The notes under the pieces: model-generated
Told to the model about the DNA's origin: nothing
Databases searched by the model: none
The model's input: the letters and a program-made list of their open reading frames with translations, nothing else
Shown here: piece by piece, positions 6,501 through 36,256 of the stretch
How the letters are laid out: every line of letters starts with the position of its first letter
Position numbering within the stretch: the first letter of the stretch is position 1
Translations under genes and position numbers: made by a program
DNA from: a virus
Virus record (IMG/VR): IMGVR_UViG_3300035698_009722
Location: 1 to 47,323 of that record
Strand: one strand, 5' to 3'
Length of the DNA stretch: 47,323 nucleotides

Positions 6501-7495
6501 CATTCAACTCCGCCAGTAGCATTAACACCTACCATCTTATCAGTGCCACCACAATTAGTTCCTATAAGTTTATCCACTTTAACACTTTCATTAGTATCAG
6601 TGTCTGGAATTATAGTATCTATATCGGAAGCACACAATACTCCACCAGTTACGTTGATTCCTATTACCTTATCTGTTCCGGGACAATCTGTTCCTACCAA
6701 TATATTGACTCTGGTTGATTCGTTGGTGTCAGTATCATCTAAATAATAACTTCCAAGTTGACCATCTAATTTATTTGCATCCCACAATGAATTATCTGTA
6801 CACGCTGACCAGTCTGAGCAAACATAAGTCGTATCACTATCTGAATAATTTGACACTTCAACAGTTGTGATTGTTCCTGGAATAGAACCCAAGTTCCAAC
6901 TAGAATTAGTATATGTAGTGTCTGTGTCCCTTTCATCTGTTATTGCTATAATAGTGCTATTAAGATTACTTTTATTTATACCAAATACTTGACTTATTAA
7001 TGTCAAATAATAATCACTCTCTGAATAGGTTGTATCACTATCACGAGCATCCGCTGAATCATTAATATATTGAGAAATGTTACTCCAATCATCTGCTTGT
7101 ATATACCCAAACACTTTAATGTTGGCAGCATACGACGAATATGGATACATATATGAACCACCATCTACCCACATAGAAATACCTGAACCTCCTCCACCAC
7201 CTAGTTCATCGTTTCCACAAGAAACTGCTCCATTAGCATCTACTCCAATAACCTTATCTGTCCCTGTACAATCCGTAGCTACCAAAACATTGAATCTTGT
7301 TGATTCATTGGTATCAGTATCTGTATCTGGAGTCAATAATACTCCATCATCATAAAAGGCACTAGCATTGATGTTCTTAGCATTATAGATGTCTTTCTGA
7401 GTCATATTCATATTAAAGAATGTCTTTATCTCTATAGCAGAAACTTGACTTAGAATACAAAGCATTAATATGACAAATAGTAGTATTTTTTTCAT
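560..7495 (-). CDS. Giant secreted repeat protein, fibre-like
   Basis: I start this 2,311-residue protein at 7495, four codons inside the longest frame, because residues 1-20 then form a clean signal peptide (MKKILLFVIL core, ending SQVSA) and the gene clears the upstream stop at 7498. It carries 15 copies of a unit of about 40 residues that opens DTDTNES, passes TDC or TNC and GTDK, and ends GGVLC or GGVEC. Two unit types interleave (CPGTDKVVGIN and CGGTDKMVGVN). Nearly every unit has two sequons (NES and NxTGG) and two cysteines. Shorter repeats (SDYYLTESSEVFGVDE, IIAITDERDTDT) lie between units. Residues about 1000-1510 are not repetitive and end with GGLDGGTAGEYYHLT and STDWTTFNNK, a style familiar from phage tail fibres. 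The place in the virion operon suggests a fibre or adhesin. A signal peptide on a tail fibre is odd, so a secreted cell-surface role is an alternative. Confidence 0.85.
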   Translation of the reverse strand: MKKILLFVILMLCILSQVSAIEIKTFFNMNMTQKDIYNAKNINASAFYDDGVLLTPDTDTDTNESTRFNVLVATDCTGTDKVIGVDANGAVSCGNDELGGGGGSGISMWVDGGSYMYPYSSYAANIKVFGYIQADDWSNISQYINDSADARDSDTTYSESDYYLTLISQVFGINKSNLNSTIIAITDERDTDTTYTNSSWNLGSIPGTITTVEVSNYSDSDTTYVCSDWSACTDNSLWDANKLDGQLGSYYLDDTDTNESTRVNILVGTDCPGTDKVIGINVTGGVLCASDIDTIIPDTDTNESVKVDKLIGTNCGGTDKMVGVNATGGVECSVDVDTTIADTTCDGETCEVTNTGTLDGYEASALLDDTDTNESVRFDKLTGTDCPGTDKVVGINSTGGVLCTEDIDNTIADTDTNESIKIDKLIATNCGGDDKMVGVNATGGIECGSDVDTDEDTTYSENDYYLTESSEVFGVDEGNLNTTIIAITDERDADTNTQLSEAQVEGMIFDIDNSGTMITTGYINATDVCVIGGNCLSDAGVGSGDITAVNTAGKYITGGSGTGDVSLLVNETELNDTIIIITDARDTDTDTTYTNESWNLESIPGSITTSEVSNWTDTDTTYVCSDWSACSDDSLWDADKLDGEDGAYYLDDTDTWRTTIDHSNVTNLNATIIVITDARDTDTTCDSDTCDVTNTGTLDGYEASALLDDTDTNESVRFGVLVGTDCPGTDKVVGINSTGGVLCTSDVDTTIPDTDCDGETCEVTNTGTLDGYEASALLDDTDTNESTRFDELANTDCPGTQKVIGVNVTGGVLCSADIDTTIADTDTNESTKITKLIGTNCGGTDKMIGVNATGGVECGSDIDTDIDTTYTNGTGLTLISTEFSHSDTSSQASSDNSGRTYIQDVILDTFGHITSIVTGTETVTDTDTNESTRIGVLVGTDCPGTDKVVGINATGGVLCTADIDTDTDTNCNATGSCSVGNVVYSDYANEGNLTLSGFVHTGVDDRGHTNLINSAGDVVIGNRLFVQNMGMFFAPAYGPALMAHEYSSSLNITSLGGTATLTASNQFICDSTDPFFVENDGMFLTVISSTPSFTDATGEITDFLNSTCIRVGFGSAGGDSIVDASDMTYYVYPKPTFSVLDNGDVHLSIGENKDTSFRIDIANGTNKHGVHIADIAGTEQHSALEIEQDMKNFDSFGLSLFSDSSTGASGINYDQIFQEIRVGGISDSEVSFINVNVIGEGTNNDIDLIHITGDIDHIIHQGSTDSLTNAYTEGIDETVNFNTNGAGATLFDLNNDFVYVGAPVNFTTISFALDTHSNKDLRLDYFYCDNTETWKILPSVTDTTDGMQISGTITFINPSDRGVCNKQYDGTPFANTTKVAYISIERTLKNVQTEPIESLVTIGGSETLMFLQSDMMKLEGSNGGPETCTANYAGAWYYDSSGVELLWCDGTAWTAFATTAAPITVHNNLGGLDGGTAGEYYHLTLAQHTIATQSATSGRDGYLTSTDWTTFNNKVDTDTDTNESTRFGILVGTDCPGTQKVIGINSTGGVLCSADIDTTIPDTDTNESVKVDKLIATNCGGTDKMIGVNVTGGVECAVDVDTNTDTTYSESDYYLTESSEVFGVDEGNLNTTIIAITDERDTDTNTQLSGADVIVFVGNWSEDKPDYYTSAEVDTELEGQDECSEITGCVENAITSYTDTNDNLTSVSVTGTTTKTITFEQDNQANISAVFTDIDNTIADTDTNESVKVDKLIGTNCAGTNKMIGVNVTGGVECGSDVDTNTDTTYSESDYYLTEVSEVFGVDESNLNATIIAITDERDTDTNTDTQDLSYDAPTNVISLVDGGTIDISEVDTDTTYINASFDLGSIPGSITTAEISNWTDTDTTCDSDTCEVTNTGTLDGYEASALLDDTDTNESTRVDELVGTDCPGTDKVVGINATGGVLCTADLDTTVPDTDTNESVKMDKLIATNCGGDDKMIGVNTTGGIECGSDVDTDTDTTYSESDYYLTESSEVFGVDEGNLNTTIIAITDERDTDTDTTYSSLSEFDNDLGYFNSYLNVTLLKDLVAGDGLQGGADDVLVGTDADVTINIDVSDFAGAYVDGEDLAIDASGECAANNLCGGGHTHDYMASTLLGDIVAGDGLQDGADDVLPGIDADVTINIDVSDFAGAYVDGEDLAFDASGDCGANKICGGGHTHSEYTDTNESTRLDELVTTDCPGTDKMVGVNSTGGVLCTADIDTTIADTDTNVTGCTDCIGPTEITDDYLLDTGDTGTGNYVFTGNVTIIHNTAVNETVNATCKIIRGATSVLEIC

Positions 7496-7497
7496 GT

Positions 7498-7836
7498 TTA
7501 GCCCCATTCCTGTATTATTTGATTATTTACATATATCTTGACTTTATGATTGACAATATCAACTTCAACTCTAGTTCCACTTGAATCTCCTACTGTCGTA
7601 GTAGCATTAATTGTAACTTCTTGATTAGTAGTATCAACATTTAAAATAGAAGTAGTATCCGCCTGTGTAACATTAAGGATAGAAGTACCATCCGCAGTCG
7701 GAGTGATTACTAACGCACCTGTCATAGTATCACCGGTGATATCTACATAGCCATCTAACGATAGGCCAGTAATGTCTCCAGCGGCATGACCGTGCATTAA
7801 CGGTTTCTTTATTAATCTATCAAACGTTACATTCAT
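7498..7836 (-). CDS. Small tail-fibre-like structural protein
   Basis: The protein has 112 residues. Near the N-terminus it has HGHAAGDITGL and then DITGDTMTGALVI, the GDTMTG motif that recurs in phage tail-fibre shaft segments. The rest is Thr/Val/Asp-rich beta-type sequence (ILNVTQADTTSILNV, VNHKVKIYVNN). There is no signal peptide, unlike the giant protein that follows two bases later. It likely forms part of the same fibre or baseplate. Assignment rests on motif style and position only. Confidence 0.7.
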   Translation of the reverse strand: MNVTFDRLIKKPLMHGHAAGDITGLSLDGYVDITGDTMTGALVITPTADGTSILNVTQADTTSILNVDTTNQEVTINATTTVGDSSGTRVEVDIVNHKVKIYVNNQIIQEWG

Positions 7837-9850: not shown

Positions 9851-10537
9851 TTATATCACCACCATACTGTTATTAAACTGTTCCGCAAAATTCAATTCGT
9901 TACCTTTTGTTAAATTGTGACACGGGACACATAATGTAATACCATTATCCACAACATAAACTTTTGTCATATCAATAGATTTTGGAATTATATGATGTGC
10001 ATTTAGAGTACAATTTGTTTTTCCACATACTTGACATTTATAATCATCCCTGTTAAATACCAAATTCCTCCAATATACATACAGTGGATTAGCAACAATC
10101 AATTGTTGTAACGAAGTAGTACCTCCTCTCCAACAAGGATTATTTTTTCCTTTTCTAATAGTTACCATATGTTCTAAATAACGTTTCGTGTTTTGTGACT
10201 CAACTTGGTTCCTAATATAAATACTATATTTCTTTAACCAACTTCGTATCGTAACATCTGTACATTTACACATACTCGCTATTTGTTTACTTGAATATTC
10301 TTCGGTAATATACTTCCTATACAACCAATCCCTATCCCTATAACTCTTTGGAAATTTAAGTTGTTCAATCTCTTTTCCGCACCGTCTTTGTATGTTATGT
10401 TTTTCTAACCATATATACACGGTAGTAGGATTAACATTAAATTCTCTAGCAATATTAACTCCATCACGTCCTTTATTCACATATTCATTATAAAGATAAG
10501 TTCTATCCCTATAACTCCTTTTATTTATTTCTTTCAA
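9851..10537 (-). CDS. HNH homing-type endonuclease with two helix-turn-helix repeats
   Basis: The protein has 228 residues. The start is probably TTG, seven bases after GGGTGAGA. Two similar N-terminal blocks (SYRDRTYLYNEYV and SYRDRDWLYRKYI) are each followed by a helix-turn-helix (NPTTVYIWLEKHNI; TDVTIRSWLKKYSI). The C-terminal HNH domain has CQVCGKTNCTLNAHHIIPK and GITLCVPCHN, with both zinc CxxC pairs. It is free-standing, sits after a terminator and runs into the glycosyltransferase ribosome site, as expected for a selfish insertion between genes. Relatives in this window are the tail of the 18078 gene and the 29854 gene. Confidence 0.9.
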   Translation of the reverse strand: MKEINKRSYRDRTYLYNEYVNKGRDGVNIAREFNVNPTTVYIWLEKHNIQRRCGKEIEQLKFPKSYRDRDWLYRKYITEEYSSKQIASMCKCTDVTIRSWLKKYSIYIRNQVESQNTKRYLEHMVTIRKGKNNPCWRGGTTSLQQLIVANPLYVYWRNLVFNRDDYKCQVCGKTNCTLNAHHIIPKSIDMTKVYVVDNGITLCVPCHNLTKGNELNFAEQFNNSMVVI

Positions 10538-16097: not shown

Positions 16098-16112
16098 AGA
16101 AAGGTTTATATA
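16098..16112 (+). promoter_or_regulatory. Archaeal BRE/TATA promoter, leaderless mRNA
   Basis: AGAAAGGTTTATATAC has the BRE purines and TATA box TTTATATA (16105-16112). The ATG at 16136 is 27 bases from the box centre, so the transcript should start at or next to the ATG. Together with the minus promoter this forms a 95-bp divergent control region. Confidence 0.75.
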
Positions 16113-16135: not shown

Positions 16136-16882
16136 ATGGGTAATAAATTGGAAAAGAATTGTAAAATATGTAAAGAGGTTTTCATCCCAAAAGTTGATAG
16201 AAGAGTTACATGCTCCACACAATGTGCCAGACTATTAAATAAATATAGACAACATATAGACGAATTTACATTCACAGTTAAATACACTCCAGTTGGAAGA
16301 GGTAGAAACAGATTAAAAAAGGTTATACCGCATGATAAACGGGGGCTAGGTAGAGATGGTGCTACACCTCCCTTGCAAGGAGGAGACGATGGGTTCAAGT
16401 CCCATAGCTTCCATTCTTCTCCGGAAGGACTGGAAGGACTGGAAGGACTGGAAGGACTGGAAGGACTGGAAGGACTGGAAGGGACTAAAGGAGTGGGAAT
16501 AGGTTCCAGTGAGGTAATGACAATTTATAATACTATTGGAGTTACTGTGGACTATACCTGCAAGGACCGGAAGTGTCTTACCCACCTTAACCATCTCCTG
16601 TTCGGAAGGCTAAATCATCAAATATATCGTGGAAGAAAATATACTTATTACAAGAAGGGATTACTACATGATACTAAATATGTCAGATTAGAAGATAGCC
16701 AATACTTTATATGTATGGAAAAGACGGACCTTGTTGATAAATTGTTTCCAATAGCAAATGAATTACTTAAAGATATTAAAATATCTTCAACATCCTTCAA
16801 ATCTGAGGATTTAAAGACTGGAAAGGAGTATTGGTTGGAAGTGGCGGAAAAGAAAGGATATAAGGTGAGAAATGTAAAATGA
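16136..16882 (+). CDS. Zinc-binding protein ORF interrupted by a tRNA gene and a tandem repeat
   Basis: The open frame has 248 residues. Residues 1-40 look like a treble-clef zinc finger (CKICKEVFIP, TCSTQCARLLNKYR). Residues 69-93 are the in-frame reading of a tRNA-Ala gene on the same strand. Residues about 96-115 are (EGL)n from a 9-bp repeat. The last 120 residues (MTIYNTIGVTVDYTC onward) look like a normal globular protein with GRLNHQIYRGRKYTYYKKG. Either the tRNA and repeat inserted without breaking the frame, or two small genes (16136 to about 16340, and one from ATG 16517) are joined by chance. The 3' end overlaps the next start by ATGA, which supports translation of the last part. 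Function is unknown. Confidence 0.6.
   Translation: MGNKLEKNCKICKEVFIPKVDRRVTCSTQCARLLNKYRQHIDEFTFTVKYTPVGRGRNRLKKVIPHDKRGLGRDGATPPLQGGDDGFKSHSFHSSPEGLEGLEGLEGLEGLEGLEGTKGVGIGSSEVMTIYNTIGVTVDYTCKDRKCLTHLNHLLFGRLNHQIYRGRKYTYYKKGLLHDTKYVRLEDSQYFICMEKTDLVDKLFPIANELLKDIKISSTSFKSEDLKTGKEYWLEVAEKKGYKVRNVK
16341..16413 (+). tRNA. tRNA-Ala, anticodon UGC
   Basis: The 73 bases fold as a cloverleaf: acceptor GGGGGCT with AGCTTCC, D stem GTAG/CTAC with GG in its loop, anticodon stem CCTCC/GGAGG around CTTGCAA, five-base variable loop, T stem ATGGG/CCCAT around TTCAAGT, discriminator A. The acceptor has G3-U70, the main identity signal for alanyl-tRNA synthetase. One flaw: base 8 is A where nearly all tRNAs have U. 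No CCA is encoded. It is embedded in an open reading frame of the same strand. It is real in fold, but its activity is not certain. Confidence 0.8.
16423..16486 (+). repeat. 9-bp tandem repeat, six perfect copies and one changed
   Basis: GGAAGGACT is repeated six times without error (16423-16476) and then once as GGAAGGGACT. It begins ten bases after the tRNA. The unit length keeps the frame and encodes repeated Gly-Leu-Glu. Confidence 0.95.
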
Positions 16883-17454
16883 AAACACAGGATCCAAAAC
16901 ATCATAATGTATCTAAGATTGTTCAAATGGGAGAGGAAAAGTATGTCTTTAAGATGATTAGAGATGGCTATTCAATGTCTGAGATACATAGAAAACTAAG
17001 TCAGAAATATGGCAAGGGAGAACTTTCCTATGCCGCCGTTAGTAGATTTCTTAAGAATGTTAAAAAGAAACAAGGACTATTGTATCAAAAGGATAAGGGA
17101 GCCCTTAAAGACTATCATAACATGGTTATGAACTATAACAAGGAACTAAAGACTATACTGGAAGAAGTAAAGGATATGAAAAAGATTGCAAAGGATGAAT
17201 TAGACTTTGCCAGTTATTCAGCACTTGTTGGTAGACTTTGGCAAGGAATAGAGTTAATAGCTAAGTTATCCGGAGACTTAAAAGACGGTCAACAGGTTAA
17301 TGTAACTCTGTTATGCGATAAAGTATCTGTAGACGAGCAAAATGTCACTCAAGACCTACGTAGAACTATGACACGAAGAGAGATTAATGTTGAAGCCATT
17401 ATTTTAGAGGAAGATGAAAAGAAAGCTGATTTCCTGGAGAAAACATACGGATAA
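16879..17454 (+). CDS. Helix-turn-helix/coiled-coil protein, possible small terminase
   Basis: The protein has 191 residues. Residues about 22-55 form a helix-turn-helix (FKMIRDGYSMSEIHRKLSQ, then LSYAAVSRFLKNVKKK). A helical, coiled-coil-like stretch follows (MNYNKELKTILEEVKDMKK). The end is acidic and may be flexible. N-terminal DNA binding with a central oligomerising coil is the usual design of small terminase subunits, but the large subunit gene is 20 kb away, so a transcription regulator is equally possible. It overlaps the preceding ORF by ATGA. Confidence 0.7.
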   Translation: MKTQDPKHHNVSKIVQMGEEKYVFKMIRDGYSMSEIHRKLSQKYGKGELSYAAVSRFLKNVKKKQGLLYQKDKGALKDYHNMVMNYNKELKTILEEVKDMKKIAKDELDFASYSALVGRLWQGIELIAKLSGDLKDGQQVNVTLLCDKVSVDEQNVTQDLRRTMTRREINVEAIILEEDEKKADFLEKTYG

Positions 17455-17474
17455 TGTTACTCCATAGTAAAAAA

Positions 17475-17490
17475 CGAAAGGTTTAAATAT
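17475..17490 (+). promoter_or_regulatory. Archaeal BRE/TATA promoter
   Basis: CGAAAGGTTTAAATAT carries a BRE and the TATA box TTTAAATA (17482-17489). The predicted start near 17511 lies just before the ATG at 17515. It may drive the long rightward operon. Confidence 0.7.
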
Positions 17491-17514
17491 TTATTCATAT
17501 TAACAATATATAAG

Positions 17515-17661
17515 ATGAAAGCGACACAAATAATAATGCCGAAAAAAAGAAAACCCGGAGAATCAGATTGGGAAAGATTCTATGGAAAGACTAGAGACGA
17601 ATATGTTGAAGGTAAATCCGCGAAAGAAGGAGAAGTAAAGAAGCGGCCATGGGATGATTAG
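17515..17661 (+). CDS. Small basic protein
   Basis: The protein has 48 residues (MKATQIIMPKKRKPGESDWE start, KKRPWDD end) with many charged residues. It is the first gene after a strong TATA box and would have almost no leader, so it should be well expressed. No family is recognised. A second ATG at codon 8 (MPKKRKPGESDW) is an alternative start. Confidence 0.6.
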   Translation: MKATQIIMPKKRKPGESDWERFYGKTRDEYVEGKSAKEGEVKKRPWDD

Positions 17662-17671
17662 AGGGATATAA

Positions 17672-17908
17672 ATGAGACAAGTAGAATTTAAATGTCCAGA
17701 ATGTAAAGGACAATTAGACAAAGACAACAATGAGACTTATTGCATAAAATGTGGTTTGGTAGTTGATGAGGGAATAGACTTTACACATGAAGTTCACCCA
17801 CTCGATAAAGAGTTTGAACGTCATAGAAGAGTAGGTCCACCACTAACAGATACATTATACGATAAGGGATTGTTTACATTAATTAGTAAAAAAATACGAG
17901 GTAGGTAA
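17672..17908 (+). CDS. Mini-TFB: zinc ribbon plus B-reader of transcription factor B, no cyclin folds
   Basis: The protein has 78 residues. Residues 8-34 are a TFIIB-type zinc ribbon (CPEC with C8 and C11, YCIKCGLVVDEG with C24 and C27). After a linker, residues 53-71 read RVGPPLTDTLYDKGLFTLI, close to the conserved B-reader of archaeal TFB (R.GaP....HDKGLsT.I). Archaeal TFB is about 300 residues and continues with two cyclin-like repeats that bind TBP and BRE; here the protein stops six residues later. The ribbon and reader are the parts that dock on RNA polymerase. Inference: it could block or change host initiation. The stop is clean, with no sign of a broken downstream frame. Confidence 0.87.
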   Translation: MRQVEFKCPECKGQLDKDNNETYCIKCGLVVDEGIDFTHEVHPLDKEFERHRRVGPPLTDTLYDKGLFTLISKKIRGR

Positions 17909-17911
17909 AAA

Positions 17912-18058
17912 ATGGTAGAATATCAAAGAAAGAAATGTGAATCATGCGGAGCAGAATTTGAAGCAATACAATTTAGTCCATCTTCACCATGCGGTAGATG
18001 TGGACACCCAAACTATTACAATTGGGGCAAAGAGAGACAAGAAGCTAATAATGGATAA
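17912..18058 (+). CDS. Small zinc-ribbon protein
   Basis: The protein has 48 residues with CESCGAEF and CGRCGHPNYYNW, two CxxC knuckles. The rest is polar. It starts three bases after the mini-TFB stop, so the two are likely made together. DNA, RNA or protein binding cannot be told from the sequence. Confidence 0.7.
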   Translation: MVEYQRKKCESCGAEFEAIQFSPSSPCGRCGHPNYYNWGKERQEANNG

Positions 18059-18077
18059 AAAGTGAGAGGGTGAGACC

Positions 18078-19490
18078 ATGAATATATTAATAGTAGGATT
18101 TGGAGCAGTAGGTAAAGCAATGCATAGTGTTGTTGCTGAATATTCTCCGGATTCCAATGTTGGATTTCTAGATTTAAACGACGAAGATACTAATGAAGGT
18201 CATGAAAAAGATTTAGATGTTATGCATATATGTATTCCATTCTCAAATGATTTTGTAGACCAATGTGAAGATTACATTAATGATTGGAAACCAGAACTTG
18301 TCATCATAAACTCAACAGTAGAACTTGGAACATGTGAGCTATTAAGAGATGTAACAGGAGCTAGAATATCTCATGTGCCTATACGAGGAATACATTGTCA
18401 ACTAAAAAATGGAATAATGTGGTTCCCAGTGATGATTGGAGCAACTTCCAAGTCAGCATTGATAAAAACAGAACAATATTACAGGAATGAATTAGAATTT
18501 GCAGATACTAATATTCACATATGTAAATCTTCCAGAGAAACAGAACTTGGAAAACTATTGTCAACAACAACATATGGAGTACATTTAGAATGGACTAGAC
18601 AGATGAAAGCTATATGCGATTCATATGGAGTGGATTTCAATGAAGCTGTAACAAAGTTTACCGAAACATATAATGAAGGGTATGAAAGTCTAGACTTGGA
18701 AAAATTTATCAGACCAGTGTTAACTCCTGTCAGTAATGATGGTTGTGGCGGCCACTGTGTTATCGAGAATGGAATTATATTATTCAATAATAAATATAAT
18801 TCGATAGTTAAACAAATATTTGCAATGGGAAAAAGTACTACAATCATTCCAAAATATAACGATAGGTCATGGTTATTCTGTGAATATATTGGAAAGGATA
18901 AAACTACAGAACAGATTGGGAGAGAGTGTAATGTGAGTTCTGTAACAATACAAAACTGGTTAAAACGATTTAATATTAAAAGGAGGCATGCTCCATGGAC
19001 GGAAGACGAAAATAAATTACTGGAAGAACTTTCTCTTGAGATGACATTTAAAGATATTTCTGATAATAATTTGTTTCCATTTAGAACATATGATAGTATA
19101 AGATATCATGCTATAGTATTAGGAATTAAGTCGTGTTACGACCCTTCCGAAAGAACATTATCAACTAGAAAGAAAATCAGTTGTACATTACAAGGAATAG
19201 CTCTGGAAGATTTTGATAAGTTTACACCAAATCATAGGAGGGGATATAAACAAAAAATGTATAACTGGAGGAGCACTGTGTTCCAACGAGATAATTATAC
19301 CTGTCAAAATACAAATTGTGAATTTTGTAATAATAATAAAGGTGTCACTTTAAATGCACATCACATTAAACGGTGGTCAAAATATCCAGATGATAGATTT
19401 AATATTGATAATGGAATAACATATTGTTACGACCATCACAAATCAATACATTTTGATATTGGGAGGAATGTAAATGCAACAAACACTTAG
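18078..19490 (+). CDS. Nucleotide-sugar dehydrogenase-like domain fused to an HNH endonuclease
   Basis: The protein has 470 residues. Residues 1-130 form a Rossmann domain (NILIVGFGAVGKAM, GxGxxG type). Residues about 150-245 match the central part of UDP-sugar dehydrogenases: ETELGKLLSTTTYGV, and NDGCGGHCVIENG, where C227 sits like the catalytic Cys of the family GGHC motif. The usual C-terminal nucleotide-binding domain is missing. From about 255 the protein is a homing nuclease: YNDRSWLFCEYI, helix-turn-helix (SVTIQNWLKRFNI), then HNH (TLNAHHIKRW, GITYCYDHH). GGGTGAGACC precedes the ATG. It looks like an HNH insertion that replaced the dehydrogenase tail. Confidence 0.85.
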   Translation: MNILIVGFGAVGKAMHSVVAEYSPDSNVGFLDLNDEDTNEGHEKDLDVMHICIPFSNDFVDQCEDYINDWKPELVIINSTVELGTCELLRDVTGARISHVPIRGIHCQLKNGIMWFPVMIGATSKSALIKTEQYYRNELEFADTNIHICKSSRETELGKLLSTTTYGVHLEWTRQMKAICDSYGVDFNEAVTKFTETYNEGYESLDLEKFIRPVLTPVSNDGCGGHCVIENGIILFNNKYNSIVKQIFAMGKSTTIIPKYNDRSWLFCEYIGKDKTTEQIGRECNVSSVTIQNWLKRFNIKRRHAPWTEDENKLLEELSLEMTFKDISDNNLFPFRTYDSIRYHAIVLGIKSCYDPSERTLSTRKKISCTLQGIALEDFDKFTPNHRRGYKQKMYNWRSTVFQRDNYTCQNTNCEFCNNNKGVTLNAHHIKRWSKYPDDRFNIDNGITYCYDHHKSIHFDIGRNVNATNT

Positions 19491-20663: not shown

Positions 20664-20913
20664 TAAAAAGATGGTTTACGTTACATATTTTCAGTTCTTT
20701 GATGCCAAACCAGCAGATGTACAGATTTTGGCACAACAGCTAAAAAAATTCTCGGATAAACTGAAAAAGGAGCATAATTTACATATAGAGTTCATTGTTG
20801 GAAATCAATACATTGAACCAAAGTCAATAGATTGGCTTGTAAAGGAATTAGATAAGATTGCGAAGACAACACAATATACGGATGCTGACCCAAAATTGAA
20901 TCCAAATGAGTGA
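20656..20913 (+). CDS. Uncharacterised small protein
   Basis: The protein has 85 residues and an alpha/beta pattern (MVYVTYFQFFDA, a Lys-rich helix LAQQLKKFSDKLKKEHN, IEFIVGNQYIE). It overlaps its upstream neighbour by eight bases. It has no membrane segment and no family I recognise. It closes the nuclease group before the glycan operon. Confidence 0.65.
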   Translation: MSDKKMVYVTYFQFFDAKPADVQILAQQLKKFSDKLKKEHNLHIEFIVGNQYIEPKSIDWLVKELDKIAKTTQYTDADPKLNPNE

Positions 20914-20918
20914 TTAGA

Positions 20919-21974
20919 ATGAATATAGGATTTGTAACATATTGGGGTTGGGGAAGAGGCCAAGCCTATGTCTCCAAGAATCTAGTAAAAGTATTGCTAC
21001 CATACCACAATGTTAACATTCTAAAGCGTGGAACAAATGCTATAGAGTCAGAATTCCCTAAAATAAATGGAATAATAACAGAGAATAAAGGATATGACAT
21101 TAGTGAAAAGTTTCTAAAAGAATGGATATCAGATAGGAAATTAGATGTGATAATGTTTATGGAAGAACAATGGCCATCCATGCAAACATCTTGTAATCTA
21201 GTAAAAGTAGCAAAAAGTACTGGAGTAAAGATATATGGATGTCCCATGTGGGAAGTATTCAATCCAGAAGACCTAGAGACATACAAGTTATATGACAAGA
21301 TAGTTCTATTCATAAAGTGTGCATATAATAAGATGATGGGATATGGACTCAACAATATCATTTATCTGCCATGGGGAGTAGACTTAAAAGAGTTCAAGTA
21401 TAAGGAGAAACTAAGCGGAGACGTTGTAACATTCTATATTCCTGGAGGATGGGGAGGAATGTACGATAGAAAGAACATAGACTCTGTAGTGAAAGCATTT
21501 AACCTGTTAAACAATGAAAATGCGAGACTTGTAATATCTATCCAGAAACAAGGACACTCTAGAAATGATGGAAATATCAAGATAATAAGTGGAGACTTGT
21601 CAAGAGAAACTTTGATTAGTCTATATCAGGATTGTGATGTTGTAGTTATGCCCAGTAAATGGGAAGGACTTGGACTCACATTTGCAGAAGCGTTCTCTTG
21701 TGGAAAGCCAGTCATAACGGTTGATGCTCCACCAATGAATGAGTTCGTCAAGGCTAACATAAATGGATTTCTAGCAGAGATTAAGAAGATTGAACATTAT
21801 CCTGGAGTACACGTACAAGGACATGTAGTTGACGAGAAGAGTCTAAAGAACCAGATGTCTAAGTGTTTCAATCCAATGATACTTAACATATTAAAGGGAA
21901 ATGCACGTAGAACAGCGATGGAATTGTATGATTGGAATAAGAATAAACTTAAATTTATTGAGTTGTTTAAATGA
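20919..21974 (+). CDS. Glycosyltransferase family 4-like
   Basis: The protein has 351 residues. The N-terminus (MNIGFVTYWGWGRGQAYVSK) is the acceptor-side Rossmann domain; the C-terminal domain has VTFYIPGGWGG, DRKNIDSVVKAF and CDVVVMPSKWEGLGLTFAEA, with the E-x7-E pair typical of retaining GT4 enzymes. I start at ATG 20919, not at the in-frame GTG nine bases earlier, because GAGTGAT gives it a ribosome site. It is the first gene of the glycan operon. Confidence 0.88.
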   Translation: MNIGFVTYWGWGRGQAYVSKNLVKVLLPYHNVNILKRGTNAIESEFPKINGIITENKGYDISEKFLKEWISDRKLDVIMFMEEQWPSMQTSCNLVKVAKSTGVKIYGCPMWEVFNPEDLETYKLYDKIVLFIKCAYNKMMGYGLNNIIYLPWGVDLKEFKYKEKLSGDVVTFYIPGGWGGMYDRKNIDSVVKAFNLLNNENARLVISIQKQGHSRNDGNIKIISGDLSRETLISLYQDCDVVVMPSKWEGLGLTFAEAFSCGKPVITVDAPPMNEFVKANINGFLAEIKKIEHYPGVHVQGHVVDEKSLKNQMSKCFNPMILNILKGNARRTAMELYDWNKNKLKFIELFK

Positions 21975-22195
21975 AAACGGAAATCAAAGATGGTACCATA
22001 TTTCTAACTGGCGATGCTACCAAAAAGGAGATTAAGGAGCTTGAAAAATTGTTAAAGAACTACAAGATAACAAAATCTCCAAACCTGAGGATAAAAGATG
22101 ACAAAGAAAAGGGAAACCATAAACGAACTGTACGACCGTCTGGGACTAAAAAAGTGGTGGCAGGACGAGCTACCGGAAAACAGCATAATAAATGA
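21971..22195 (+). CDS. Small uncharacterised protein
   Basis: The protein has 74 residues. The first 40 look like a small folded domain (MKTEIKDGTIFLTGDATKKE, then a Lys/Leu helix). The rest is basic and of low order (RTVRPSGTKKVVAGRATGK). The start overlaps the glycosyltransferase stop by ATGA. A second frame of 36 residues overlaps its end, so one of the two C-terminal readings may be spurious. Confidence 0.5.
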   Translation: MKTEIKDGTIFLTGDATKKEIKELEKLLKNYKITKSPNLRIKDDKEKGNHKRTVRPSGTKKVVAGRATGKQHNK

Positions 22196-22208
22196 TTTGC
22201 CGATATAA
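22098..22208 (+). CDS. Small overlapping ORF
   Basis: The frame has 36 residues (MTKKRETINELYDRLGLKKW start, ENSIINDLPI end) in another frame over the 3' end of the 21971 gene. It looks protein-like and amphipathic, and its TAA is one base before the next ATG at 22210, matching the tight packing of this operon. A frameshift joining it to the preceding gene is an alternative. Confidence 0.4.
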   Translation: MTKKRETINELYDRLGLKKWWQDELPENSIINDLPI

Positions 22209-22209
22209 A

Positions 22210-22884
22210 ATGAAATGCAACTTTACACATAGTCATTATGCAGAAATATTACAGATGTATTTAGATGCTGGATATAAGTTTTACACATTCAATGAACATC
22301 CACAAAATCTAATGAGTTTTGATACAAAGGTGGTATTCCTACGGCACGACATAGATAACTCATTAGAACGGGCTTTAAAGCTGGCTAGCATTGAATCTAG
22401 CATCGGTATCAAGAGTACATATTTTATACGTCTACATGCTACAATGTATAATCCTTTTAGCTATCCTTCCATAAAGATTGTTAAGGAGTTATTGGAACAT
22501 GGACATGAAATTGGGATACATTATGAACCCGGATTGATTGATAATGAAAGTTTGGTTGGTCTGGTTGATAGAATGATAACAGAATTAACAATGATGGAAG
22601 TGAACTATGATACAGGAATACGCTCCATATCAACACATGAACCCAGAATGGAAAAGCATAAAGTGACAAAAGATTTGTTAAAATTGATATCCTTGAAACA
22701 TAACGCTTATTCCGATAAGTTCACGAAAGATATGAAATATATAAGCGACTCTTCTATAGTTCCAATAAGCAAAGGACGTTGGAGAGAAGGTTGTATGTGC
22801 CAGCATATTGGTAAGTATGACAAGATGCAAATATTAATGCATCCAATATTGTGGTACAAAGATACTAGCCTGGAGAACTACTAA
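22210..22884 (+). CDS. Polysaccharide deacetylase-like (NodB-type) protein
   Basis: The protein has 224 residues; I use the ATG at 22210 because it follows the small ORF stop. Motifs are VVFLRHDIDNSLERALKLA (the HD of motif 1), STYFIRL, and ELLEHGHEIGIHYE (motif 2), with a late ILMHPILWY. This layout fits NodB-like deacetylases that remove N-acetyl groups from sugars, in the variant common in O-antigen-type clusters. Metal ligands in the last motifs are less clear, so activity is not certain. Confidence 0.78.
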   Translation: MKCNFTHSHYAEILQMYLDAGYKFYTFNEHPQNLMSFDTKVVFLRHDIDNSLERALKLASIESSIGIKSTYFIRLHATMYNPFSYPSIKIVKELLEHGHEIGIHYEPGLIDNESLVGLVDRMITELTMMEVNYDTGIRSISTHEPRMEKHKVTKDLLKLISLKHNAYSDKFTKDMKYISDSSIVPISKGRWREGCMCQHIGKYDKMQILMHPILWYKDTSLENY

Positions 22885-22885
22885 C

Positions 22886-23992
22886 ATGAATATACTTTAT
22901 ATAGGACTTGAAGCTGGTAATTGGGTAGTCAATATAGCAAATGCTTTATGCGAACACGGACATACAGTTACTTGTTTTGTACAAGACTACGAAAAATATG
23001 ACGATTCCAGCAGTCCAGAATTACACAAAAACTTGACAGTACATGAAATTCCATACGAAGAAATACTAAACCCTGGAAGATTCAAGGATAAGCATATAGA
23101 CAAGATACCTAAAGATATTGATATTGTATTTACTACAGATATCTATACTACTAAAATCAGTGCATATCTTGGAACACAACTAAAAGTTCCATGGACAGTG
23201 ATGGTGATTGATGTACCAACAGATATATTACATGCTGATAGAACCAGAAGATTATTATTCCAACAATTCTTTGAAATTTTAAAACATTGTCCTGCGGTGT
23301 TTTTTATACTTAAGGTATCCAGAGATGAGTTCTATAACTTTACTGGACATATGTTTCCAGACGACCATGTAGTTCCATATGCAATACCACTCCCAGAAAA
23401 GTATTATCTATCTGGAGTGGATATCAAAGGAGATTATGTAATAAGTGTATGTAGATTGACTTCAATAAAGAATTGTAAGATTATCCCACAAGCACTTGGA
23501 ACTTTAGATACCATAAAGAAATATGTCTGTGTTGGAACAGATAAAGGAGCATTAAAAGAGATAGAATATCATTGTAAAAAGAATGATATCGAACTTATAC
23601 GATATGAGAACATATCACAGGAGAAGAAGTTTGAACTCATTAGAGACTCTTCAATGCTGATATACCCACAGATTACTCCTTACATTGGAGGATTGAGTCC
23701 ATTTGAGGCAATGCATGTAGGAAAGTTTGCTGTTATCCCAAAGACAAAATCTATGATGGAGCAATGTGAAGAACACGCTATGTATTTTACAAATAATGAT
23801 GCGGCTACATTGGCAAATACTATTGCATTTTGTCATTCAATGAAAATAGGAGTTACAGAAGAATTTAAAGCAAATGCGGCGAGGTTTGTTTCAGCCAAGA
23901 TAAACCTACTCCGAATGGGAAAAAGCCTCTCTACGTTGCTGGAAACCGTTCACAGACGTTCAAAACGTAAAGGGATATTCAAGATGGATTAA
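22886..23992 (+). CDS. Glycosyltransferase (GT-B)
   Basis: The protein has 368 residues. It has N-terminal MNILYIGLEAGNWVVNIANA, a linker at DHVVPYAIPLPEKY, a C-terminal domain with YVISVCRLTSIKNCKIIPQA, and LIYPQITPYIGGLSPFEAMH, the place of the donor-binding Glu in GT4 enzymes. The tail is basic (RRSKRKG). It starts two bases after the deacetylase-like stop. The sugar donor and acceptor cannot be read from the sequence. Confidence 0.85.
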   Translation: MNILYIGLEAGNWVVNIANALCEHGHTVTCFVQDYEKYDDSSSPELHKNLTVHEIPYEEILNPGRFKDKHIDKIPKDIDIVFTTDIYTTKISAYLGTQLKVPWTVMVIDVPTDILHADRTRRLLFQQFFEILKHCPAVFFILKVSRDEFYNFTGHMFPDDHVVPYAIPLPEKYYLSGVDIKGDYVISVCRLTSIKNCKIIPQALGTLDTIKKYVCVGTDKGALKEIEYHCKKNDIELIRYENISQEKKFELIRDSSMLIYPQITPYIGGLSPFEAMHVGKFAVIPKTKSMMEQCEEHAMYFTNNDAATLANTIAFCHSMKIGVTEEFKANAARFVSAKINLLRMGKSLSTLLETVHRRSKRKGIFKMD

Positions 23993-23993
23993 G

Positions 23994-24872
23994 ATGAACA
24001 TATTAGTTGATTGTGTACAAACTGGAAGCATTGTGTTGAAACACGTTGATGTAGATTTAGTAGTAACACTTAGACCGTGGACTGCTTGGAGACATAAACT
24101 ATCTGGATATGTTAATCATGCCAAATATTGCAGAAAAAAGAAAATTCGAGTTTACTATCCACAGAAATTTGACTTATCTGGAAAGAGAGACTTGAAGATG
24201 TTCCAGAAATGGAAACCAGACTTACTTATGGTATTCGGTTGGCAGAGAATCATACCGGATGAGATTATTAAGACGGCAAAGGTTGCAGTAGGGAATCATG
24301 GAAGCTGGAAGTATCTTCCATTTGGACGAGGACATTCTCCAATCAATTGGGCACTTATAAAAGACAAAAAGAAGTTTTATTCACATCTATTCTATTTGGA
24401 ACCAGGAGTAGATTCTGGAGACATAATAGATGTTAAGAAGTTCCCAATTAATACTCAAGATACATGCGACAGTTTATATAAAAAGAATGGTATGATGCTT
24501 TCTTCTATGTTACAAACAAATTGGGATAATATTAAAAATAGAAAGCCCGGAATCAAACAACTTGGAGTTCCAACATATCTTCCTAAAAGGATACCAGAAG
24601 ATGGACTATTAACTATTGACATGTCAACAAAGCAGATGTATAATAAAGTTAGAGCCCTGGCTAAACCGTATCCAGGAGCATTTATAGAAAATAAAAGTAA
24701 ACATATAATTAGAATTTGGAAGGCTTCTCCGTTTGGATTAAATTTTAATAAACGGAAAGCTGGAGAAATATATCAGTTTCAGGATGGTCAAATATTGCTA
24801 TTTACAAAAGATAGTTCATTGTTGATTACAGAGTGGAGCTTAGAACATAAAGGAGGAAGAAACAATGGATAA
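23994..24872 (+). CDS. Sugar N-formyltransferase-like protein
   Basis: The protein has 292 residues. The formyltransferase core is seen in LLMVFGWQRIIPDEII, GNHGSWKYLPFGRGHSPINW and FYLEPGVDSGDIID, which correspond to the N-x-H...LP..RG..P and D-GD blocks of methionyl-tRNA and sugar formyltransferases. The spacing between H and LP is two residues longer than usual and the family Asn is shifted. A C-terminal domain like that of formyltransferases follows. In a sugar cluster with two DegT-type enzymes the likely target is an amino sugar. Confidence 0.8.
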   Translation: MNILVDCVQTGSIVLKHVDVDLVVTLRPWTAWRHKLSGYVNHAKYCRKKKIRVYYPQKFDLSGKRDLKMFQKWKPDLLMVFGWQRIIPDEIIKTAKVAVGNHGSWKYLPFGRGHSPINWALIKDKKKFYSHLFYLEPGVDSGDIIDVKKFPINTQDTCDSLYKKNGMMLSSMLQTNWDNIKNRKPGIKQLGVPTYLPKRIPEDGLLTIDMSTKQMYNKVRALAKPYPGAFIENKSKHIIRIWKASPFGLNFNKRKAGEIYQFQDGQILLFTKDSSLLITEWSLEHKGGRNNG

Positions 24873-24990
24873 TGAATTGCATACAGCAGTATGCTCAGAT
24901 TGTAGCCAATCATGCGAAGTACCATTTAAACCCGCACCGGGTAGAGATGTGTTCTGCCGTGATTGTTACAAAAAAAAGCGAGGGTATTAA
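24865..24990 (+). CDS. Small CxxC zinc-binding protein
   Basis: The protein has 41 residues with CSDCSQSCEVPFKPAPGRD and FCRDCYKKKRGY. This pattern (C..C...CEVPF.P......CRDCY.K.R) is a widespread small zinc-binding protein of archaea and candidate phyla. A strong AAAGGAGG lies upstream and the gene overlaps the formyltransferase by eight bases. It may bind RNA. Its role among sugar genes is unknown. Confidence 0.8.
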   Translation: MDNELHTAVCSDCSQSCEVPFKPAPGRDVFCRDCYKKKRGY

Positions 24991-25003
24991 CCCTCCATTT
25001 TTT
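24980..25003 (+). terminator. Terminator-like hairpin inside the glycan operon
   Basis: GAGGG-TATTAA-CCCTC is followed by CATTTTTT. It overlaps the zinc-protein stop and ends four bases before the epimerase ATG. It could lower expression of the genes that follow, or hold their ribosome site, since no other Shine-Dalgarno lies between. Confidence 0.45.
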
Positions 25004-25006
25004 AAA

Positions 25007-25939
25007 ATGAGAGTATTTATAACTGGAAGTGAAGGGTTTATAGGAACCCATTTAAAGGAGCGATTAACGAGAGAAGGACACATTGTCGTCGGACTAGACA
25101 ACTTATCGCATCTTTGTAGATTTAGTAAGGGAGATTATATAAATGGAGATATCAGAAATATCTGGAGCTACTATCATATACTTAAGAAATGTGATTGTAT
25201 AGTTCATTTGGCGGCACAGATTAATGTAGAGAAATCACTAGTAGACCCAGTAGATACAGTTGACATAAATGTAATGGGAACATTAGCTGTATTGGAGACA
25301 GCTAGAAAACTTGACATACCAATCATATTCGCATCATCCACAGAGATATATGGAGATAAGCAAGACCCAAAGATGTGTGAAAAACATATCATGGATCCTA
25401 AAAGTCCATACGCCGCCGCCAAGATGGGAGCGGATGGTCTATGTAAAGCATATCATCATTCGTACGGACTTAAAGTAATAATAATAAGAAACTTTAATAC
25501 ATTTGGAAAGTATCAGAGTGATGATAAGTGGGGAGCTGTGATAGCCAAGTTTGCAGATAGACTTATAAATAATAAATCGCCGATAGTATTTGGAGATGGA
25601 ACACAGAAAAGGGATTTCATGGGATATAAAGATGCTATAGATTTTTATATGCTTATGATTGAGAACGGAAAGGAGTATTGGGGACAAGAATTCAATGTTG
25701 GAATGGGAACGAATATAAGCATTGGAGAACTTGCTAGGGAAATGATACACATATTCGGCATGGAAGGAAAGATTGAACCTATACATGCCGACCCTAGACC
25801 TGGTGAGGTGCACGAATTCTTATGTGATAATACTAAAGCTCTAAACACTGGATGGAAGCCAAATATGGATTTTAATAGTCTTATGAGAGAATATATACAA
25901 TGGAAATTAGCAAATGACAATCCAAAGGTGACAATATGA
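25007..25939 (+). CDS. NAD-dependent NDP-sugar epimerase/dehydratase
   Basis: The protein has 310 residues and starts at MRVFITGSEGFIGTHL (GxxGxxG). It has DNLSHLCRF at the second strand, SSTEIYGD, SPYAAAKMGAD (catalytic YxxxK) and IIRNFNTFGKYQ, all standard for extended short-chain dehydrogenases such as UDP-glucose 4-epimerase and NDP-sugar 4,6-dehydratases. The FNTFG block leans to the dehydratase side. The 45 codons upstream in frame belong to the overlapping zinc protein, so the start is 25007. It overlaps the next gene by ATGA. Confidence 0.87.
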   Translation: MRVFITGSEGFIGTHLKERLTREGHIVVGLDNLSHLCRFSKGDYINGDIRNIWSYYHILKKCDCIVHLAAQINVEKSLVDPVDTVDINVMGTLAVLETARKLDIPIIFASSTEIYGDKQDPKMCEKHIMDPKSPYAAAKMGADGLCKAYHHSYGLKVIIIRNFNTFGKYQSDDKWGAVIAKFADRLINNKSPIVFGDGTQKRDFMGYKDAIDFYMLMIENGKEYWGQEFNVGMGTNISIGELAREMIHIFGMEGKIEPIHADPRPGEVHEFLCDNTKALNTGWKPNMDFNSLMREYIQWKLANDNPKVTI

Positions 25940-26103
25940 AATATGAAGATATTCCGGAAAACATTAGAGACCGAATGAATATTGATGAATTTATATTTGG
26001 AAACGGTTTCTGTTTAAAACATTCAGATGGTACCTTTGAAAGAATAGACCCGATGAAAGTTAAACTTAACACACGAACCAAAACCTTTGAGGTAATAAAA
26101 TGA
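25936..26103 (+). CDS. Small uncharacterised protein
   Basis: The protein has 55 residues (MKYEDIPENIRDRMNIDEF start, KTFEVIK end). ATGA overlaps at both ends show that it is translated in the operon. The sequence is mixed and soluble with no cysteine pair. No family is recognised. Confidence 0.7.
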   Translation: MKYEDIPENIRDRMNIDEFIFGNGFCLKHSDGTFERIDPMKVKLNTRTKTFEVIK

Positions 26104-27191
26104 AATATAAAGTTGGAGACTTCAAAACGAGTCCACAGCAGAGAGATGTGATAATGGAGATACTCGATAACAATTGGGTTACAGAGAATGTCTATGTAGA
26201 TTTATTCGAAAGGAGTGTTGAAAAGTTTCTTGGAGTAAATCACGCTATTGCAGTATGCAATGGAACAGTATCATTACAACTCATAGCACATTTTACCAGG
26301 ATGACAAATAAAGATAAAAAACTTACAGTATGCTGTCCAGCTACTACATTTCCAGCCACACTTAACGCTTTTCTTATTTTAGGATACGAACCAATATTAT
26401 GCGAGATTGACAGAAATAACTTATGTATGGACATTGACAAATTAACAGAGGAAGAGAAAAGGAAGATAGATGTGATAGTACCAGTGTCACTATTAGGATA
26501 CACTCCTGATATGGACAAGATTATGGAACAATCATCTAAATATCAATGGATTGTTGTTGAGGACTTTGCTGAATCATTTGGAAGCACATATAAAGGTAAG
26601 AAACTAGGGTCTATAGGACATATGGGTTCTTCATCGTTCTTTGTAAGTCATGTGTTTCAGGGAGGAGAACTTGGAGTTGTGACTACAAACAGACCAATCG
26701 TAGCAGATATTCTACGAAAGATGAAAAATCATGGTAGAGATGGAAGTACATTATTATTTAAACATAAATATGTTGGCTCGAATTATAAGACTACAGAATT
26801 TAGTGCTGGGTTAGCTTGGGCACAATTACAGGACGCAGATAGAATAATAAAGGAGAGACAAGCTATAGCAAAAATATATCACGATGGGATAACTAATTCG
26901 GACCTCACTCCGATGCCCGTCAGTGATGATTACAGCTACTTGGGATATCCAATTTTGGCTAAAGATGAGGAGACTAGAATAAAGATTTGTAAACATTTGA
27001 ATAAACATGGCATAGAGACACGTGGAATGTTCCCGTGTCTGGCAAACCAAGAAGCGTATAAAGGAATGTTTGACTCTAAAAAGTTCCCTATATCAGTAGA
27101 GATGGAAAACAGAGGATTCTACATTGGAGTTCATAGTCTAATCGACAATTTAGGAGCTAATTATATTGTGGAGAAATTGAATAAAAAATGA
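26100..27191 (+). CDS. DegT-fold PLP enzyme with His in place of Lys (sugar 3-dehydratase type)
   Basis: The protein has 363 residues of DegT/DnrJ/EryC1 type: CNGTVSLQL, VCCPATTFPATLNAFLILGY, VVEDFAESFGSTYKG, then SSFFVSHVFQGGELG. In aminotransferases of this fold a Lys holds PLP at this place; here H184 stands there. A His here is the mark of the dehydratase branch (RfbH/E1 of CDP-ascarylose synthesis and ColD of colitose synthesis), which removes the 3-hydroxyl. The C-terminal region (NYKTTEFSAGLAWAQLQ) is complete. Likely product: a 3-deoxy sugar. RfbH-type enzymes need a reductase partner that I do not see; ColD-type do not. Confidence 0.82.
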   Translation: MKYKVGDFKTSPQQRDVIMEILDNNWVTENVYVDLFERSVEKFLGVNHAIAVCNGTVSLQLIAHFTRMTNKDKKLTVCCPATTFPATLNAFLILGYEPILCEIDRNNLCMDIDKLTEEEKRKIDVIVPVSLLGYTPDMDKIMEQSSKYQWIVVEDFAESFGSTYKGKKLGSIGHMGSSSFFVSHVFQGGELGVVTTNRPIVADILRKMKNHGRDGSTLLFKHKYVGSNYKTTEFSAGLAWAQLQDADRIIKERQAIAKIYHDGITNSDLTPMPVSDDYSYLGYPILAKDEETRIKICKHLNKHGIETRGMFPCLANQEAYKGMFDSKKFPISVEMENRGFYIGVHSLIDNLGANYIVEKLNKK

Positions 27192-27982
27192 ACATAATAG
27201 CTGAAACTGAAAAGAACTTTGCAAAATTTGTTGGGACACGTTATGCTATCATGGTAAATTCTGGAACGGCCGCACTTCACGCTGTTTATCTCGCTTACGG
27301 TGTGAGACCTGGGACCAAAGTGGTCGTTCCAGCATTTACTTACTACTCTACTGTCAATATGATATTAGCTTGTGGAGCAGAACCAGTATTTGCGGATATA
27401 GACCCAAAGACATATCTAATTTCCATTGATGATGTTTTTAAGAAACTTACCAAAGAAACGGTAGCTATAGTTTTAGTTAATTTATTCGGTAAAGAAATCA
27501 AAAAAAGAGAAATAGATATTTTAATAGACGCATTTCCGGGAGTGAAAATGATTATAGACTCTGCACAGTGTTGTAAGCCTGAAATGAACTACGGAGACGT
27601 ACAATGCTTTAGCTTCTACAAGTCAAAGAACTTTAGTTGTTTTGAGGGTGGAGCAATCGCTACAGATAATATGAGACTGGCAAACAAATGTAGAATCATT
27701 TCCAACCAGGGAGAAGATGGAAAGTACAATACTGCTACACTAGGATTCAATTATAGAATGAGTGATATAACCGCTACAATGTTAAATCATCAGATTATGT
27801 ATCATAGGCCTGGTGGTATTGCTGAATTGGGAAGATGGGGAATAGAGAATGGCCATTATCCAAGAGTTGTATATGACCAACCATTATATAAACGTCTTGG
27901 ACTTTATAGTAAATGGAAAGGGAGTTGTCCAAACGCTGAGAAATTGGCTAAGAAAGTTAGGGAGAAATATTGGAAAAAATGA
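27188..27982 (+). CDS. DegT/DnrJ/EryC1 aminotransferase, shortened
   Basis: The protein has 264 residues; the family norm is about 370. The PLP domain is whole: VNSGTAALHAVYLAYGV, VVVPAFTYYSTVNMIL, IIDSAQCC, SFYKSKNFSCFEGG with the Lys at 147, and GFNYRMSDITATML. After that about 80 residues of the small domain are absent and the sequence jumps to GIENGHYPRVVYDQPLYK, a normal C-terminal block. It may pair with the enzyme just upstream, with which it overlaps by ATGA. Likely reaction: amino transfer to a keto sugar. Confidence 0.8.
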   Translation: MNIIAETEKNFAKFVGTRYAIMVNSGTAALHAVYLAYGVRPGTKVVVPAFTYYSTVNMILACGAEPVFADIDPKTYLISIDDVFKKLTKETVAIVLVNLFGKEIKKREIDILIDAFPGVKMIIDSAQCCKPEMNYGDVQCFSFYKSKNFSCFEGGAIATDNMRLANKCRIISNQGEDGKYNTATLGFNYRMSDITATMLNHQIMYHRPGGIAELGRWGIENGHYPRVVYDQPLYKRLGLYSKWKGSCPNAEKLAKKVREKYWKK

Positions 27983-28926
27983 ATGTAAAATATTATGGGT
28001 CGGATCCTGGTGTCAATACTGGAGACTATTTTGTGTATCACGCTATAAAAGGCTTTGGATTCAACTTTAATGATAATGCTAATCTATTACTTATTGGTGG
28101 AGGAACAATGCTTCCAATATCTGAAAAGTTGGTAAAGGGATTCACTCCTGAAAGAACATTCACTGTAGGTAGTGGAGTATTAGATAAACCGTATTCACAG
28201 AAACTTATGCTAAACGAACTAGAATATGACAAAAACCTATCATTCACACGTAAATTCCTATCCAAATGTAAGTTTGTTGGACTCCGTGATAATGGAAGCA
28301 AAGATGTATTGGGATTTGGAAGAGTGATTGGAGACCCAACATATATGATTAATACAAAAGGACTTAAGAGTGATGGACTCGGAAAATATGTAATATTAAA
28401 TGTTGGATTCACTCAAGGAGATGTAATTGGTGGGATAACAGCACAACTTGAATATCTTCTTCCGATACTAAAATTTGCGAAGTATTACTTGGCAAAACAT
28501 CTTGGATATAAAATATGTATTATATCCTTTGCATCTGAAGATAAAGGATTTTGCAGTTTGGCACATAGATATCTCGGAAAGTCTCATATATATGACAGAA
28601 CAGACAAGAAAAACACTGACATATTTAATATTTTCAGCAATGCCGAATTTGCGATAACTTACAGGCAACACGCAATGATTACAGCAATCATATGTAGGAT
28701 ACCAGTGATTCCAATAGCATACCAGGAGAAGGTTATCAATGTTGCGAAGGATTTTAACATAGACAAATATTCTATAACAACTGATATGGTAACAGAGGAA
28801 GAGTTGTTCGAAAAACATGGAATGTTGGAAAGTTGGGATAGTAAACAGATAAACGATAAATTAAATTATTATAGAGCTACAATGAATGATTATCTTAGTG
28901 AACTTAGGAGGGAATTTACAAAATGA
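27979..28926 (+). CDS. Polysaccharide pyruvyltransferase-like protein
   Basis: The protein has 315 residues; I start at ATG 27979, which overlaps the upstream stop. Motifs are GVNTGDYFVYHAI, LLLIGGGTML, VGLRDNGSKDVLG, VIGDPTYMI and FAITYRQHAMITAII with a later IPIAYQEK, the usual series of the CsaB/WcaK family. These enzymes add pyruvate as a ketal to sugars in cell-surface polymers, where it can anchor SLH-domain proteins. Some relatives act as plain glycosyltransferases. Confidence 0.84.
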   Translation: MNVKYYGSDPGVNTGDYFVYHAIKGFGFNFNDNANLLLIGGGTMLPISEKLVKGFTPERTFTVGSGVLDKPYSQKLMLNELEYDKNLSFTRKFLSKCKFVGLRDNGSKDVLGFGRVIGDPTYMINTKGLKSDGLGKYVILNVGFTQGDVIGGITAQLEYLLPILKFAKYYLAKHLGYKICIISFASEDKGFCSLAHRYLGKSHIYDRTDKKNTDIFNIFSNAEFAITYRQHAMITAIICRIPVIPIAYQEKVINVAKDFNIDKYSITTDMVTEEELFEKHGMLESWDSKQINDKLNYYRATMNDYLSELRREFTK

Positions 28927-30459: not shown

Positions 30460-30460
30460 A

Positions 30461-31218: not shown

Positions 31219-31334
31219 AGAAAACACAATTATTTGACCAAGAATTAAATGAAATAAGAATCAAATTGATACAATTCCAACACGAACTTGAAACTAGAAT
31301 ACTTCCAATGTTAGAGGAGAAGATGAAAAAATGA
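31197..31334 (+). CDS. Small helical protein
   Basis: The protein has 45 residues (MSGEEVLKKTQLFDQELNEI start, MLEEKMKK end), one long amphipathic helix with coiled-coil heptads. It overlaps the acyltransferase by 22 bases and the methyltransferase by four. No family is recognised. Confidence 0.65.
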   Translation: MSGEEVLKKTQLFDQELNEIRIKLIQFQHELETRILPMLEEKMKK

Positions 31335-35213: not shown

Positions 35214-35214
35214 A

Positions 35215-36255: not shown

Positions 36256-36256
36256 A

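Follow-up and report, generated by a model that had tools for sequence, protein, structure and literature searches.

A TFB-derived zinc ribbon and B-reader predicted in a putative accessory cassette of an archaeal virus

In archaeal TFB, the zinc ribbon binds the dock domain of RNA polymerase (RNAP), the linker region with its reader and linker motifs enters the enzyme, and the cyclin folds contact TBP and BRE (PMC7289017). Few direct virus-encoded regulators of the archaeal enzyme are known; a review from 2022 describes two direct RNAP inhibitors in a virus-host setting, only one of which is viral (PMC9501531). A 78-aa open reading frame (ORF) on an IMG/VR virus contig raises the question of whether a virus can carry the N-terminal part of TFB by itself, how it might have obtained this part and what it could do with it. 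The whole contig of 47,323 bases was analysed and is referred to as the window. A first-pass annotation had described the product of the ORF as a mini-TFB consisting of zinc ribbon and B-reader only. That the DNA is viral, as stated there, is supported by the presence of portal, major capsid and terminase genes.

Zinc ribbon, B-reader and the missing core

The ORF was found exactly where it had been placed, and two segments of its product could be assigned to TFB:

17672..17908, plus strand: mini-TFB ORF, 78 aa, ATG to TAA, with a TFIIB-type zinc ribbon (aa 6-34) and a B-reader (aa 43-73)
17687..17773, plus strand: zinc ribbon with the ligands C8, C11, C24 and C27 (PF08271 match)
17798..17890, plus strand: B-reader RVGPPLTDTLYDKGLFTLIS, aa 43-73, from a reader-only profile and an alignment to the TFIIB chains 3k7a/7o4i

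The HMM search against TFB N-terminal models that had been suggested was run, and Pfam, NCBIfam and PHROG all match. The zinc ribbon is recognised by PF08271 (E 3.8e-8, 33.2 bits vs a cut-off of 29). Moreover, residues 5-74 correspond to positions 13-87 of 312 in the NCBIfam model 'transcription initiation factor IIB', the archaeal TFIIB model (E 6e-9), and residues 7-74 to positions 2-71 of 293 in PHROG 20431 (E 1.4e-9). Judged by these two match ranges, the likeness stops at the expected start of the TFB linker. For the reader, a separate profile was built from the segment following the ribbon in 69 full-length TFBs, with mini-TFB left out. This profile recovered mini-TFB with an E-value of 8.2e-8, and the runner-up among 4174 background ORFs of the window and its relatives reached only 0.56.

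Over the aligned stretch, mini-TFB is 29-44% identical to archaeal TFB and eukaryotic TFIIB, and residues 24-99 of yeast TFIIB show the same order of modules. All invariant residues of a 41-protein alignment (C8, C11, C24, C27, G28, R53, G55, P57, D64, G66, L67, T69 and I71) are present, although the invariance of the reader is in part due to selection because the comparison TFBs had been picked partly by their reader motif; the E-values from Pfam, PHROG and NCBIfam are independent of this choice. In the alignment to 3k7a/7o4i, R53 is placed on R78 of yeast TFIIB, and E40-V41-H42 take the place of the conserved E62-W63-R64, meaning that the tryptophan and the arginine have been lost. Changes at E62, R64 and R78 of yeast TFIIB affect start-site choice, and the replacement of EWR by EVH may have altered the function of the reader in mini-TFB. 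Thus, both modules of the initial description stand by independent profile matches, but the reader is complete only in its second half and altered at its start.

The AlphaFold model is of moderate quality (mean pLDDT 68, pTM 0.36); it contains a short helix at residues 46-49 and a hairpin at 61-70, and residues 11-30 of the ribbon reach pLDDT values of 81-83. A Foldseek search with this model gave no match at E<=0.001, and TFIIB chains appeared among many ribbons, ribosomal ones included. Model and fold search are consistent with a predicted ribbon and neither add to nor subtract from the identification.

The first-pass annotation had also held that the parts binding TBP and DNA are missing, and this was borne out. 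The TFIIB cyclin domain (PF00382) is absent at E<=1 from every frame of the 47-kb window, and by this profile search mini-TFB lacks both cyclin folds, which in TFB bind TBP, BRE and DNA. The B-linker is absent as well: the ORF ends 7 residues after the reader, and no remnant of linker or core lies downstream. A tblastn search of the window with 100 TFB linker-plus-core sequences returned nothing credible. Matches at 259-564 belonged to a secreted-type protein and disappeared under low-complexity filtering. A match at 18870-18965 survived filtering, but it is a generic 32-aa HTH in the HNH-bearing protein encoded next to the cassette; it is not a leftover of mini-TFB because the homologue of this flanking protein in the relative L136 can be aligned over 462 aa.

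Judged from these sequence comparisons, mini-TFB is a real, TFB-derived and virus-carried module. It is not a member of TFB proper because linker and core are absent, and it is not of the TFB3 type, having a reader and no cyclin fold. The retention of every invariant residue of the TFB N-terminus in a protein whose core is gone argues against drift.

Gene order at the locus and searches for equivalents

The mini-TFB gene is the second of three ORFs in a cassette that starts with a BRE/TATA promoter; it is preceded by a basic ORF and followed by the ORF of a zinc-ribbon protein, both of 48 aa:

17455..18077, plus strand: accessory insert of 623 bp (~0.6 kb), absent from six syntenic relatives
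17476..17489, plus strand: BRE/TATA promoter GAAAGGTTTAAATA of the cassette, promoter-like by sequence, ~26 nt upstream of the ATG at 17515 (near-leaderless)
17515..17661, plus strand: first cassette ORF, 48 aa, lysine/arginine-rich (basic), no family match and no NCBIfam hit
17912..18058, plus strand: third cassette ORF, small zinc-ribbon protein of 48 aa, weak Zn_ribbon_8 and an S27ae-like match (E 7e-4)
16879..17454, plus strand: left flank, 191-aa HTH-containing protein, kept in all six relatives
18078..19490, plus strand: right flank, 470-aa protein, nucleotide-sugar-dehydrogenase-like, carrying an HTH and an HNH, with conserved homologues in relatives

The GAAAGGTTTAAATA element also occurs at 16099-16112, with T for A at its one free position. 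Allowing for up to two mismatches, six BRE/TATA sites are found in the window vs 1.9 expected, and BRE/TATA-like sites precede the corresponding operon in five relatives. The HNH domain of the right-flank protein is similar to that of the ORF at 9851-10537, and L136 has the same domain arrangement.

Six related viral contigs (L131-L136; 23-111 kb) were found via the major capsid protein, which is 61-66% identical; portal and terminase used as baits retrieved no related contigs. The gene order around the mini-TFB site is conserved in all six, and in five of them the homologues of the two flanking genes directly adjoin. In L133, a different and unrelated gene of 120 aa lies between them, which is why the site can be regarded as a variable slot in this virus group. 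This gene (about 4505-4864, minus strand; MKVGIVGSRKRIDKSN...) has a SLOG-like look by eye. A TFB of any length was found neither at the site nor elsewhere in the six records by a search that recovered mini-TFB as a positive control, the model including mini-TFB as a row.

It had been considered that related genomes might have a full-length TFB at this place, of which mini-TFB would be a truncated remnant. This was examined, and since the six syntenic relatives are devoid of any TFB, mini-TFB is not an in-place remnant. TFBs that were broken in place on four haloarchaeal plasmids served as a control; they keep long downstream core matches (tblastn E 1e-22 to 1e-35). The lack of such a match here, unlike in the plasmid controls, and the gene order of the relatives lead to the reading that 17455-18077 is best seen as an insertion in the mini-TFB virus; losses in the other viruses are less likely. 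The arrangement is of the moron type, with the insert lying between genes that are adjacent in relatives and having its own promoter-like site. We hold the identification of mini-TFB and its arrival in a gained cassette, taken jointly, with high confidence.

Equivalents were sought in viral and cellular genomes. No direct relatives of mini-TFB were found in IMG/VR by peptide patterns. Viral TFBs in IMG/VR were retrieved with a degenerate reader pattern, a type of scan by which diverged copies are missed; among the matches listed, all TFBs whose ORF is not cut by the end of a contig or stretch are full length (about 310-350 aa). Three contigs of 50, 38 and 41 kb encode full-length TFBs whose N-terminus (MIIFDPERGEYVDTETGE) lacks the zinc-ribbon cysteines; these proteins keep reader and core and are a mirror image of mini-TFB. 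The 80 genome contigs most similar to mini-TFB contain ordinary TFBs as far as the ORFs could be followed. In 45 Halobacteriota and 70 Methanobacteriota genomes, for which the matches were fully listed, no ORF of less than 200 aa reaches past the ribbon region of the model. Among the matches listed for 51 Thermoproteota genomes, one short ORF does so and turned out to be LysW-like on inspection. The short ribbon ORFs of archaeal genomes were therefore rejected as equivalents, being ribbon only or, in one case, LysW-like. Thus, no other stand-alone ribbon-plus-reader protein was found in the 115 archaeal genomes or among the matches listed for the 51 Thermoproteota genomes. Haloarchaeal plasmids encode proteins annotated as 'TFIIB-type zinc ribbon-containing protein', and all seven that were inspected are full-length TFBs; two unannotated plasmid matches have long intact frames. 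The unannotated TFBs on the four control plasmids are broken or shortened by a frameshift or stop that lies in the N-terminal region or behind it, and the core is still readable downstream. Viruses with full-length TFBs and cells with truncated ones are already known; as far as these sequence searches reach, a TFB on a virus that consists only of ribbon and reader appears to be new.

Known systems and the possible effect on host transcription

Mini-TFB differs from archaeal TFB and eukaryotic TFIIB in lacking the B-linker, the cyclin folds and the BRE-binding HTH and in having EVH in place of EWR. Two archaeal reference viruses encode TFBs as well, but ORF32 of Acidianus rod-shaped virus 3 (281 aa) and ORF43 of a Halorubrum tailed virus (310 aa) include the core. 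The truncated cellular TFB paralogue TFB3 of Sulfolobus is likewise a cut-down TFB with a ribbon and without a BRE-binding domain; however, TFB3 has one cyclin fold and no reader (PMC2246294, PMC3189178), whereas mini-TFB has a reader, no cyclin fold and a viral genome as its location. A 231-aa Thermoproteota ORF that we read as TFB3 also lacks the reader. The RIP protein (ORF145) of the Acidianus two-tailed virus resembles mini-TFB in being a small viral protein that is thought to exclude TFB from RNAP (PMC9501531, PMC5123050), but its helical fold is unrelated and goes back to a virion protein, and it is not a homologue of TFB.

Mini-TFB probably interferes with, or redirects, the gene-reading machinery of the host. 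In the explanation that we place first, one member of a tailed archaeal virus family would have gained a TFB N-terminal module within a small accessory cassette driven by its own BRE/TATA promoter. The zinc ribbon of mini-TFB would bind the dock domain of the polymerase and the reader would enter the cleft. Without B-linker and cyclin folds, the protein would hold neither TBP, BRE nor promoter DNA. A polymerase occupied by it would not be brought to a promoter, so that mini-TFB would compete with host TFB and lower or rebalance host initiation. Such a competition has precedents: in vitro, TFB1 is displaced from RNAP by TFB3, and that study also refers to an isolated zinc ribbon as an inhibitor (PMC2246294); moreover, RIP works by mimicking and excluding TFB (PMC9501531). 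The novelty that had been expected does not extend to the mechanism, as cellular TFB3 already provides a documented case of a truncated TFB competing with host TFB (PMC2246294). Polymerase binding, competition and an effect on host genes are each predicted from the analysis, and we judge competition as the mode of action to fall slightly short of an even balance. The explanation as a whole, in which a gained cassette delivers a docking module that competes with host TFB, appears to us evenly balanced; points against it are the EVH at the start of the reader, the moderate AlphaFold model and the fact that the gene is known from one copy, by which a measure of selection is precluded. TATA/BRE promoters are also used by the virus, whose own transcription would therefore suffer from a plain TFB competitor as well. 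If competition is right, timing or dose must therefore matter.

Co-activation in trans comes second and is rather unlikely. Mini-TFB would then join the host TBP-TFB-RNAP complex, aid opening or first-bond formation and favour weak or viral promoters. Indeed, according to later reports, TFB3, which also lacks a BRE-binding fold, acts together with canonical TFB as an activator in trans and not as a repressor (PMC7289017, PMC3189178), and the reader, the part linked to the active site, is kept in mini-TFB and absent from the TFB3 example mentioned above. However, the one cyclin fold of TFB3 could touch the ternary complex and mini-TFB has none, which is the reason for putting competition first. 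Furthermore, the ribbon of host TFB normally occupies the dock site already.

An inert TFB gene fragment, acquired along with adjacent DNA and not yet lost, ranks third and is improbable. Haloarchaeal plasmids do carry broken TFB genes and the mini-TFB gene has been seen in a single virus, but the plasmid genes keep a strong core, whereas only the 32-aa HTH in an older, conserved flank was found here. Moreover, the ORF stops cleanly behind the reader, it comes with a promoter-like site, and all invariant residues are retained.

It is still less probable that mini-TFB pairs with a separate DNA-binding protein of the virus and that the two direct RNAP to viral promoters in a sigma-type manner. 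The cassette also encodes the 48-aa basic ORF and the 48-aa zinc-ribbon protein, and the window has about half the length of the longest contigs of the relatives, so that a partner could be encoded in a part of the genome outside the window. However, a candidate partner was not found, the recognised viral promoters are ordinary BRE/TATA promoters that need no special factor, and the relatives manage without mini-TFB. If this explanation were true, an archaeal virus would have a TFB cut down to a detachable docking module, i.e. a sigma-like split initiation factor.

Finally, a zinc-ribbon protein with another task in RNA or DNA binding and an incidental likeness to TFB is very improbable: small zinc-ribbon proteins are common in archaea and the structure search returned generic ribbons, but a reader match that does not depend on the ribbon was obtained (E 8e-8), and the reader is absent from all other small ribbons inspected.

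A natural ribbon-plus-reader module sets the half of TFB that binds the polymerase apart from the half that binds the promoter. Mini-TFB could serve as a ready test of the role of the reader in the absence of linker and core, and of whether the TFB docking site is blocked or borrowed when archaeal viruses take control of transcription.

Host and other genes of the virus

An archaeal host, as had been assumed, is indicated by the BRE/TATA sites, the TFB module and the major capsid protein, which resembles that of an Altiarchaeum virus (E 2e-13). The host can be placed no finer than 'archaeon' because only distant matches were obtained when three archaeal phyla were searched with the capsid protein. 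A complete gene for the anaerobic ribonucleotide reductase NrdD (39567-41336, plus strand) suggests that the host is anaerobic.

Upstream of the cassette, a tRNA-Ala(TGC) gene (16341-16413, plus strand; Rfam 53 bits) lies inside the frame of the ORF at 16136-16882. Relatives match this ORF only from about residue 113-135 onward, and the long ORF may be an accidental fusion. A large sugar/surface-glycan gene block (20910-37306, plus strand) comprises genes for glycosyltransferases, NDP-sugar epimerases, DegT aminotransferases, a formyltransferase, a pyruvyltransferase, methyltransferases and a B12-radical-SAM protein. The family matches of a 2315-aa protein (560-7507, minus strand) are confined to weak PHROGs of unknown function, and L134 encodes a 577-aa stretch that is 51% identical to it.
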